From: an uncultured Nitrosomonadales bacterium
GTDB taxonomy: Bacteria; Pseudomonadota; Gammaproteobacteria; Burkholderiales; Methylophilaceae
Assembly: GCA_913048465.1 (NCBI GenBank)
Contig: CAJWVO010000003.1
Span: forward strand, 1 to 64,000
Direction: 5' to 3'
Length of the DNA: 64,000 nucleotides
Positions 8,307 through 11,466 of this stretch are shown piece by piece. Positions within the stretch are counted from its first letter, which is position 1; each line of letters opens with the position of its first letter. The position numbers and the translations under genes are program-made. Below the pieces are notes generated by a model. The model saw nothing but the letters and a program-made list of their open reading frames with translations. It did not search any database and was not told the origin of the DNA.

Positions 8307-9173
8307 TTAGTTTTTTCCTTTGATTAATGTACCTACACCTTGATTGGTTAAAATTTCTAACAACAATGCATGCTCAACTCTACCGTCTATTATATGTACA
8401 CTATTGACTCCGCCTTTTGCGGCATCCATAGCCGATTCAATTTTAGGCAACATGCCACCACTTAATGTGCCATCTTTAATCAATGTTTCAATATCATTTG
8501 GTTTTATTCCTGTAATCAGATTATTTTGGTTATCAAGTACACCTTTGGTGTTAGTCATAAGGATTAATTTTTCTGCCATGAGAACCTCAGCTAACTTGCC
8601 TGCGACAACATCTGCATTAATGTTGTAAGTTTTTCCATCTGAACCAATTCCAATTGGAGCTATTACAGGAATAAAGTCACCAGTATCTAGAAAATCGATG
8701 AGGCTGGGATCGATGGACTCAATTTTACCCACATAACCAAGGTCTATTTTTTTCCCATCTTTATCTTTAGCAAGCTTTGAAGCATGAATGAAGTTTCCAT
8801 CTTGCCCGGTAAGGCCTACTGCTTTTCCACCATGAATGTTTATTTGATGAACAATTTCTTTATTTATTTGACCTCCTAAAATCATTTCAACAACATCCAT
8901 TGTCTCTTCATCAGTCACTCTGACCCCGTTAATAAATTCACCCTTCTTGCCGATTTTCTCAAGGTGTTCATTGATCTGTGGACCACCTCCATGTACAACA
9001 ACTGGATTCATACCCACTAATTTCAATAACACTACATCCATAGCAAAAGAGCTTTTTAGTTGCTCATCTATCATTGCATTGCCACCAAACTTAATCACAA
9101 TGGTTTTATCAAAAAATTGCTTTATGTAAGGTAATGCTTCACTAAGTATTTTTGCTTTGTCGTTAGGTGCCAT
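8307..9173 (-). CDS. argB: N-acetylglutamate kinase ArgB
   Basis: ArgB phosphorylates N-acetylglutamate, the second step of arginine biosynthesis. The amino-acid-kinase fold is evident: [16 protein letters not shown] near residue 20, [34 protein letters not shown] and [15 protein letters not shown]. It is 288 aa long and has the N-terminal helix ([20 protein letters not shown]) found in arginine-feedback-sensitive hexameric enzymes, so feedback inhibition is plausible. The ATG overlaps the argA stop in a TAATG junction, so argA and argB are probably translated from one mRNA and put the first two arginine steps together. The HAD phosphatase follows five bases downstream. Confidence 0.97.
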
Positions 9174-10675
9174 TATTGCTCCAATTCCTTTAAAAATATT
9201 TTTGAATTTCTTTGTGGGGAGTATTCCTTTTTTTTCTCATCTGGTAAATCATTAATGTTGCCCTGTTTAAAATCATTTTCCATAAACCAGTGACTGGATT
9301 GAGTTGTCATAATAAACGTTTTGTTATTCATTTTTTTGCACTCATTTTCACAATATTCTAAAAGTTTTTTCCCATAACCCATGTTTTGGTAATTTTCATT
9401 TATTGCAAAACAGGCAATTTCAGATATTCCATCATAATGTTTAACTTGGGCACACCCGAGTATCTTATTATCAAATTCTAAAATGTGGAAATGTTGTATT
9501 TCCATTTCTATCTTTTCAAGATTCCTGTCTGCAATGATTTGAGTCTTGATTAAGGGATTAATCATTTTTTCAATCACTTTAGCGTCTTGTATGTTGGCAG
9601 ATCTAAATTTTTCTATTTTTTCTGGTGTAATGACAGTTCCTTGACCCTGGTTAGTAAATAATTCCATAATTAATGAACCATTAACGTGCCTATTAACTAA
9701 ATGAATCTTTGCTAAGCCCTCTTTTAAGCCTTCAGCCGCACCTTCCAATATTGGTAATGTATTTTTTTCTATAAATTCTGGATGCTCTGATCCTTTGATA
9801 TGGGATATCAAATTGTTCAATTTGATGCTTGTCATTTCAGATATAAATTCACCTCTGATATTTTGTACCCCATTATTTTCAGTGATATAAATTAATTTTT
9901 CAGCCTGAATTGAAGAAGCAATTTTGCTTGCCGATGATTCAAAGGATAAATTAAAGATTTCCCCAATTGGAGAGTATCCAATAGGAGACATGATGACGAT
10001 TTCATTGTGGTTAAGTTTTTCAATGATTGCCTCATGATTAATTTCCCTAATAACACCGGTTTGTTCCATATCAACTCCATCAATAACTCCTCTAGGTTTC
10101 GCCATAAGAAAATTGCCAGATGAAATTTTCAACTCACTTTTAAAGATATTATTGTGGTAAATGTTGGAAGATAAAGCTGCCTCAATTTTTGTCTTTACCA
10201 AGCCATTAGCTTCAATAATATGAGGCATCATCTCTGCGGTTGTAACTCTTTGATGCTTATGGAAGCTGGATTTAATACTATTTTTATTCAATCTTAAGTC
10301 GATAAAAGGCCTGATGCCATGAATTAGGATGATTTTAATTCCTAAGGAATGAAGTAAATTAATGTCCGTACATAAATTGACAAAAGAGTTACTCTCAAGA
10401 GCAAAGCCATCAAATGCAATAACGAAAACCTTATTTCTATAATGATGAATATAAGGCGCTGCTGATCTAAAAGCTGATATAAAATCGACACTTGATTGTC
10501 CCACTAAATTATCAATGGAAACTTTGAAGTAATTTGAATATTTTATTAGAACTGGTAAGGAAGGTTTCAGTTTTCCTTGTTCTATTTTCGATAGATTGCC
10601 AGGATCTAAATCAAGGATTTGACTGAGGTTGGCAATAGTTAACTTTCTATCGGTTCTAAGTTGTTTAAGATTCAT
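9173..10675 (-). CDS. argA: N-acetylglutamate synthase ArgA with fused N-terminal XRE helix-turn-helix domain
   Basis: ArgA makes N-acetylglutamate from acetyl-CoA and glutamate, the first arginine step. Three domains are visible in one uninterrupted 500-aa frame. Residues 1-57 are an XRE-type helix-turn-helix ([19 protein letters not shown], then [17 protein letters not shown]). Residues about 64-345 are the amino-acid-kinase-like, arginine-sensing domain, opening with the canonical [16 protein letters not shown]. Residues about 360-500 are the GNAT domain ([16 protein letters not shown], ending [12 protein letters not shown]). Usual ArgA is about 430-450 aa and starts near residue 60 here. 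No ATG lies close to the canonical start, but a GTG at codon 58 (10504-10502) could allow a short form; it has no clear Shine-Dalgarno. Two palindromes lie directly upstream. Enzyme identity is sure; a DNA-binding role is inferred. Confidence 0.93.
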
Positions 10676-10692
10676 ATTGTATATTTTACAAT
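10676..10692. promoter_or_regulatory. Perfect 17-bp palindrome abutting the argA start codon (candidate operator)
   Basis: ATTGTA and TACAAT arms of 6 bp are separated by 5 bp. The element ends exactly at the base before the argA ATG, where a ribosome-binding site would normally lie; no Shine-Dalgarno sequence is visible. Protein bound here would block initiation or a promoter very close to the gene. XRE-family regulators often bind such short palindromes, so the fused HTH domain of ArgA is the obvious candidate ligand, but binding is inference only. Confidence 0.45.
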
Positions 10693-10701
10693 ATTTATAT
10701 T

Positions 10702-10738
10702 TAATTTTGTATAAATTTATGTAATTTATACAAAATTA
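10702..10738. promoter_or_regulatory. Perfect 16-bp inverted repeat overlapping the rsmE stop (candidate operator)
   Basis: Arms TAATTTTGTATAAATT and AATTTATACAAAATTA flank a 5-base spacer. The right arm covers the last codons and stop of rsmE. Both this element and the neighbouring one carry TTGTA...TACAA half-sites, and their centres are 36 bp apart. A pure A/T stem with no T-run after it on the rsmE strand makes a poor intrinsic terminator, so I favour a protein-binding site for argA control. It could also be a weak rsmE 3' hairpin. Confidence 0.45.
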
Positions 10739-11466
10739 TTGGTTAAGGCTAATATCGCGCTTGTAATTGATAAGGAGGCGGTCTCAGTTCGCAATACTCT
10801 ATTGCCCAAAGATAATGACTTGAACCCAGCATTTTCCGCAACTTTGATTTCAGCTTCTGAAAAGCCTCCTTCTGGTCCAATTAAAATTTGAAAACTTTTT
10901 TTATTTATTAAATCGCTATTTCTTAAATTTGATAGTGAGTAATCAGTGTAGGGATTCAAAATTAACTTGCACGAATAATCATCTTCATTTGTTAACTTAT
11001 TTAAACTAATAATTGTTTCATGGACAGTTGGTATTTTTGACCGACCACTCTGCTCGCATGCAGAAGTAATGACTTTTTTCAGATGTTCAATTCTGTTCGC
11101 TGTTTTGGTTTGAGGAATTTTAAAGTTTACTCTTTCGGTATTAATTAAATAGAAATTTTTTATTCCAAGCTCTGTATTTTTTTGAAAAATAAAGTCGAGT
11201 TTATCTCTCGAGGTTACTGATTGCAGGATGCTGATATCAATATCTGCTTCACTAGTGTTGAGTTTTTTCTCATTAACAGAAATATTGACATTTTTTTTAT
11301 CAATGTGAGATACCTCGCCATGATAATCATACCCATCGCCATTAAATAGTATGATTTTATCTGATGGCTTTAATCGCAATGATTTAACAAGATGTTTTGA
11401 GGCATCTTCAGATAGATTGATGTCGCTATGTGCTGAAATAGTGTCTGGATGGTAAAATCTATTCAT
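10726..11466 (-). CDS. rsmE: 16S rRNA (uracil1498-N3)-methyltransferase RsmE
   Basis: RsmE methylates U1498 of 16S rRNA in the assembled 30S subunit using S-adenosylmethionine. N-terminal PUA-like residues (NRFYHPDT, HLVKSLRLKPSDKIILFNGDG) precede the SPOUT knot domain, whose cofactor loops ILIGPEGGFSEAEI and SLGNRVLRTETASL are intact. Its length of 246 aa is typical. The start ATG faces the divergent redoxin gene with only 26 bp between, so one of the promoters must lie inside the other gene. The 3' end lies in the large palindrome upstream of argA, and read-through into argA is possible. Confidence 0.95.
   Translation of the reverse strand: MNRFYHPDTISAHSDINLSEDASKHLVKSLRLKPSDKIILFNGDGYDYHGEVSHIDKKNVNISVNEKKLNTSEADIDISILQSVTSRDKLDFIFQKNTELGIKNFYLINTERVNFKIPQTKTANRIEHLKKVITSACEQSGRSKIPTVHETIISLNKLTNEDDYSCKLILNPYTDYSLSNLRNSDLINKKSFQILIGPEGGFSEAEIKVAENAGFKSLSLGNRVLRTETASLSITSAILALTNNFV

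Follow-up and report, generated by a model that had tools for sequence, protein, structure and literature searches.

The window, a 64,000-nucleotide stretch of DNA from an uncultured Nitrosomonadales bacterium placed in the Methylophilaceae, carries on its minus strand an arginine-pathway locus in which argA begins with a helix-turn-helix (HTH) domain. The genes and protein features of the locus are:

9173..10675, minus strand: argA, the XRE-ArgA fusion gene, 500 aa from an ATG start in a single open frame
10505..10672, minus strand: XRE/Cro-CI type HTH domain of five helices, aa 2-57 (Pfam, AF2, Foldseek)
10580..10603, minus strand: recognition helix PGNLSKIE, aa 25-32 (AF2 helix)
9692..10432, minus strand: amino-acid-kinase-like, arginine-binding domain, aa 82-328 (Pfam AA_kinase, alignment to 2r8v)
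9635..9664, minus strand: arginine-binding motif, aa 338-347 (fits the motif of PMC4490483)
9299..9502, minus strand: GNAT acetyltransferase domain, aa 392-459 (Pfam)
8307..9173, minus strand: argB (N-acetylglutamate kinase), immediately downstream of argA
10726..11466, minus strand: rsmE-like 16S rRNA methyltransferase, the upstream gene, assigned from its own sequence with no search

The product of the argA frame is a classical ArgA with an XRE/Cro-CI HTH added in frame. ORF reading and translation show no stop codon within 9173-10675 on the minus strand, and Pfam places HTH_19 at aa 2-57 (E 2e-9, 37.5 bits against a cut-off of 30.2) and HTH_3 at aa 3-55 (37 bits against 23), together with AA_kinase at aa 82-328 and Acetyltransf_1 at aa 392-459. 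The ArgA equivalog NF003641 of NCBIfam, its model matched over the full length, covers aa 61-498 (E 6e-142, 473.5 bits against 344), and TIGR01890 scores 409 bits against a cut-off of 202.85. In the alignment to the NAGS of N. gonorrhoeae (2r8v), the N-helix of the ArgA part starts at about aa 63. The first-pass annotation, made from the DNA letters, had placed the HTH and ArgA domains in one open frame, with the usual ArgA N-terminus beginning near residue 62 and the HTH as an added rather than a changed domain. ORF, Pfam and NCBIfam agree on the shared frame, the equivalog match puts the ArgA start at about residues 61-65, and comparison across the family likewise points to an added domain. 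At the other end of the gene, argA and argB overlap by one base, 9173, with which the argA stop codon ends and argB begins; this adjacency is kept across the genus, in which the two genes are likely co-transcribed.

A frameshift or assembly artefact is ruled out by identical architecture in complete genomes of isolates. The near relatives of the window's genome are beta proteobacterium KB13 and LSUCC Methylophilaceae isolates, and four complete genomes contain the fusion at 96-97% identity. Because it recurs in these four and in ~115 of 120 Methylophilaceae genomes, covering 22 genera, the HTH is far beyond chance. Every sampled genome of the family with an intact argA carries the fusion, and the ArgA match in the 120 genomes starts at profile position 1-5, split or damaged genes apart. 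It had been suggested that relatives might hold the XRE domain as a separate gene, with a frameshift in the window, and these data exclude both. In loci L065 (genome G029) and L141 (G113) argA is in pieces, with stops or frame changes, and these look like assembly errors or decay and not separate genes.

Sampling beyond the family gave a consistent boundary. Among the matches listed from 399 Burkholderiales genomes, only those of Methylophilaceae (family f1) begin in the HTH, and the fusion is not seen, among the same matches, in ~50 other Burkholderiales families. Direct reading of argA from 24 other families showed proteins that open with the ArgA N-terminus itself. A 123-position profile of the HTH plus the ArgA N-terminus was also searched against 398 Pseudomonadota genomes; only the 2 Methylophilaceae sampled there were positive, with no joined HTH and ArgA outside the family. 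Independent fusions elsewhere were considered and rejected, as other Pseudomonadota match the HTH alone, in other ORFs, or ArgA alone. Since the fusion is family-wide and confined to the family in these samples, it is most simply read as an ancestral trait of Methylophilaceae, a family of methanol users. The best stand-alone HTH matches are ORFs of ~200-240 aa in other families, for example L156; these are perhaps XRE-cupin regulators, and a possible source of the argA HTH domain.

Only ~50 bases separate the end of the rsmE-like gene from the argA ATG, and both operator-like sites are contained in this interval. With an overlapping repeat, they are:

10677..10691, no strand: operator-like site 2, TTGTATATTTTACAA, a perfect dyad centred at -9 from the ATG
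10719..10733, no strand: operator-like site 1, TTGTATAAATTACAT on the minus strand, with one mismatch, centred at -51 and overlapping the rsmE stop codon
10702..10738, no strand: perfect inverted repeat with 16-bp arms, overlapping site 1, its length not conserved in relatives

The two sites lie 42 bp apart. Site 1 is kept across the genus in the upstream alignment; site 2 is kept in 5 close genomes and is the only non-coding exact match common to them. Two other identities were discarded: the inverted repeat at 10702-10738 as the conserved operator, since it decays in L005-L007 whereas the 15-bp dyads persist, and a terminator of rsmE, as no terminator-like site is present.

Across the family the palindromes take the form TTG-N9-CAA, as either TTGTA-N5-TACAA or TTGC-N7-GCAA, and are often paired at ~30, 42 or 50 bp. 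We counted them in 87 distinct Methylophilaceae argA upstream regions and in shuffled controls. Perfect TTG-N9-CAA occurs 65 times against 5.5 +/- 2.1 in the shuffles, near-perfect dyads 95 times against 8.5 +/- 2.6, an excess of ~11-fold, and 28 upstream sequences hold at least two sites where 0.4 are expected. Tallied by genus, at least one palindrome is present in 17 of 22; genera g2, g3, g38, g39 and g41 have weaker dyads only by the same criterion, and several species carry one site only. The same scan found zero TTG-N9-CAA-type sites upstream of the HTH-less argA of 24 other families, a comparison less strict than the shuffle because many of those upstream regions are richer in G+C. TTTGTAW5TACAAA, the strict form, is present in 3 of 10 genomes and lies solely in front of argA in all three, and in six genomes of the window's genus the exact TTGTAN5TACAA matches common to the species are that of argA and one within coding sequence.

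The placement of the sites is that of candidate repressor targets. By eye, the pair in several genera flanks a -10-like element, and 16-17 bases upstream of it a -35-like TTGYAW opens site 1. In many genera site 1 starts with TTGYAW and site 2 is directly downstream of the -10-like element; a pair around such an element is how the sites of a simple repressor are laid out. At the window's argA no consensus promoter was found on the minus strand, and the -10 is degenerate. The spacings concentrate in phase (R ~0.86 at a period of 10.25-10.5 bp), with ~30, 42 and 50 bp corresponding to roughly 3, 4 and 5 helical turns. This would fit one oligomer on two sites of one DNA face, and is suggestive only, because the clades are few and related. 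In some sub-clades of the genus (L011, L017, L021 and L023-L027), the second operator, centred at -2, spans the ATG and codon 2 (TTGTATTTTATGCAA), and the proteins therefore start Met-Gln; operator and coding sequence are mutually constrained in these loci.

Operator class also follows the HTH. Residue 36 is Q with TTGC-type half-sites in 25 of 26 cases (25:1) and L with TTGT-type half-sites in 29 of 34 (29:5), counts that ignore kinship. Variation at HTH residues 25, 26 and 36 goes with operator class, and the half-site class switches in at least two parts of the tree. Where Gly26 has become Ser, in lineages of genera g1 and g42, the TTGTA site is mostly gone or altered. In L016, L019 and L022 the recognition helix has gone from GN to SS and TTGTA site 1 is replaced by a TTTATCATAAATCGATAAAT-like symmetry, with the TTGC-N7-GCAA site still at the ATG, a possible natural specificity change.

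AF2 places HTH helices at residues 2-9, 14-21, 25-32, 40-50 and 54-58, with pLDDT ~75-92 over aa 1-50; the full-length model, built from only 6 sequences, has a mean pLDDT of 43 and is poor outside the HTH, and a single-sequence model of the HTH by itself is of middling quality. In Foldseek, the HTH of the AF2 model superposes on the SinR-DNA structure 3zkc with an rmsd of ~1.1-1.2 A (TM 0.81) and on P22 c2-operator structures at ~1.1 A. Among 27 family members, L28 and E32 are invariant and S29, I31 and G34 nearly so.

The enzyme half is complete, with catalytic and arginine-binding residues all present. In ngNAGS the substrate and catalytic residues are R316, E353, R425 and S427 (PMC4490483), to which R384, E419, R489 and S491 align in the fusion; the first three are invariant and S491 nearly so in the 27 members. 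The loop at aa 338-347 matches exactly the published NAGS arginine motif E-(L/I)-(F/M)-(T/S)-X-X-G-X-G-T, and K260 and E338, counterparts of the arginine ligands K201 and E270 of ngNAGS (PMC4490483), are both invariant. Arginine binding shifts the N-terminal helix of NAGS and greatly changes the hexamer (PMC4490483), and it is to this helix that the XRE domain is joined, via a short linker (~30 residues in other genera).

Since the operator-like palindromes are confined to argA genes with the fusion and change along with its HTH, control of its own gene is well supported, and the fusion NAGS would act directly as an autorepressor of argA. We give a probability of roughly 0.78 to the reading that this is a bifunctional NAGS, in which an arginine-inhibited ArgA carries an XRE head that binds the palindromes of its own promoter and represses argA, with arginine as the likely co-repressor. 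The ArgA part would make N-acetylglutamate under feedback inhibition by arginine, and through its XRE domain the hexamer would dock on a single short palindrome of the TTGTA-N5-TACAA type or on two. Once bound, the fusion would repress argA and, in the window's genus, probably argA-argB. Arginine is probably the co-repressor, and the most likely one because it moves the helix to which the head is attached. We infer DNA binding, repression as the sign of control, arginine as the effector and the bridging of two sites by a hexamer from these comparisons. The earlier proposal was of a single protein with three roles, namely production of N-acetylglutamate, arginine sensing and control of its own transcription. 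The third is well supported by conserved, fusion-specific palindromes that vary with the HTH, and the sensing is supported by conserved arginine-binding residues alone; arginine gating of DNA binding stays conjectural.

There are possible explanations other than an arginine-gated autorepressor. The fusion may repress argA irrespective of arginine, either as constant negative autoregulation by enzyme amount or with acetyl-CoA, glutamate or N-acetylglutamate as the effector, and neither the operators nor the signs of autoregulation themselves single out an effector. This is unlikely, as the arginine pocket is fully conserved and the arginine-driven movement of the N-helix (PMC4490483) takes place exactly where the HTH attaches. 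A less probable hypothesis is that the fusion stands in for ArgR more broadly and regulates several arg genes by way of degenerate sites. In gammaproteobacteria ArgR provides arginine-responsive control of arg genes, and it is reported absent outside them in the set of PMC5343134. The first-pass annotation had proposed looking for an argR, and the C-terminal domain of the repressor (Arg_repressor, PF02863) is found in 0 of 61 Burkholderiales genomes across 25 families; no ArgR domain is among the Pfam matches of the fusion protein. ArgR is thus missing from the whole order as sampled, which would leave room for a substitute, but exact and strict motif searches found no second conserved non-coding target, other shared sites lie in coding sequence, and exact motifs give no support to a regulon beyond argA. 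The HTH-less NAGS of other Burkholderiales are likewise without ArgR, so autoregulation of argA is not obligatory.

The HTH could also be vestigial or purely structural, since XRE folds can serve dimerisation, with the palindromes belonging to another regulator. Selection on the domain makes this very improbable. In species pairs with unsaturated synonymous sites, dN/dS over the HTH (codons 1-58) is 0.02-0.05, and 0 for L008 versus L009, not above that of the kinase-like or GNAT parts, which puts the HTH under purifying selection as strong as that on the catalytic domains. The recognition helix is conserved, the palindromes are present only where the fusion is, and their half-site class varies with HTH residues. 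Several genomes are also without any other HTH_3 protein that could take the role: the argA head is the sole HTH_3 match in the complete or near-complete genomes G008, G014, G015 and G018 (several complete ones 1.3 Mb), and the streamlined genomes G001, G003, G006, G008, G014, G015 and G018 have 1-2 such matches in total, the argA head being the only strong one. An untranslated HTH with the true start at GTG codon 58, the alternative named in the first-pass annotation, has next to no likelihood: the GTG is present in the closest species, but the codon is TTG in L009 and TTA in L008, where codons 40-75 offer no other start, and the codons upstream of it evolve as protein (HTH dN/dS ~0.02-0.05).

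Returning to the arginine-gated autorepressor, we slightly favour a fuller version of it, a three-in-one controller in which catalysis, allosteric feedback and autorepression would share one arginine site. The N-helices moved by arginine would place XRE heads pairwise so that they bridge two operators whole turns apart (~30, 42 or 50 bp), giving a one-gene circuit kept in streamlined 1.3-Mb marine genomes without another HTH_3 protein. If true, ~60 residues added to an arginine-moved helix turn a feedback-inhibited enzyme into a genetic switch, a candidate answer to how arginine is sensed at the gene level in a bacterial family without ArgR. The proposal is directly testable because ~90 natural operator/HTH pairs exist, changed specificities included. 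It would also be relevant to amino-acid production in methylotrophs, deregulation of argA being a usual target in such production.

Among known systems, classical NAGS as in N. gonorrhoeae (2R8V/3D2P) consists of AAK and GNAT domains with the same catalytic and arginine residues, at ~28% identity to the fusion in the Foldseek alignment. Unlike XRE-ArgA, it is without a DNA-binding domain, and control by the enzyme of its own gene is not known there. ArgR differs in being a separate protein with no homology to the fusion. ArgH(A) of marine gammaproteobacteria (PMC1382215) also belongs to the arginine pathway. In this enzyme-enzyme fusion a pathway enzyme is joined to a NAGS-type domain, with no DNA-binding domain. 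Yeast Arg5,6 is eukaryotic and not a NAGS, and it moonlights where XRE-ArgA has an added domain. It is not known to have an HTH domain. Arg5,6, which contains the NAGK domain, is an arginine-pathway enzyme and also a DNA-binding regulator of transcription (PMC10672435). NadR, like XRE-ArgA, unites a biosynthetic enzyme and a transcriptional regulator in one chain, but the enzyme, effector and operon are others and homology is in the HTH only. NadR combines an N-terminal XRE-type HTH with NMN adenylyltransferase and ribosylnicotinamide kinase. BirA (winged helix plus biotin ligase) and PutA (ribbon-helix-helix plus proline dehydrogenase) are also enzyme and regulator in one chain, although their folds and ligands are unrelated to those of XRE-ArgA. 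NadR, BirA and PutA are listed as multi-domain enzymes acting as transcription regulators (PMC4307903). A literature search, with subscription papers outside its coverage, returned no description of an HTH-NAGS. By analogy with NadR, BirA and PutA, XRE-ArgA would be a new enzyme-regulator fusion and, if true, NAGS becomes one more of the few biosynthetic enzymes known to double as transcription factors.
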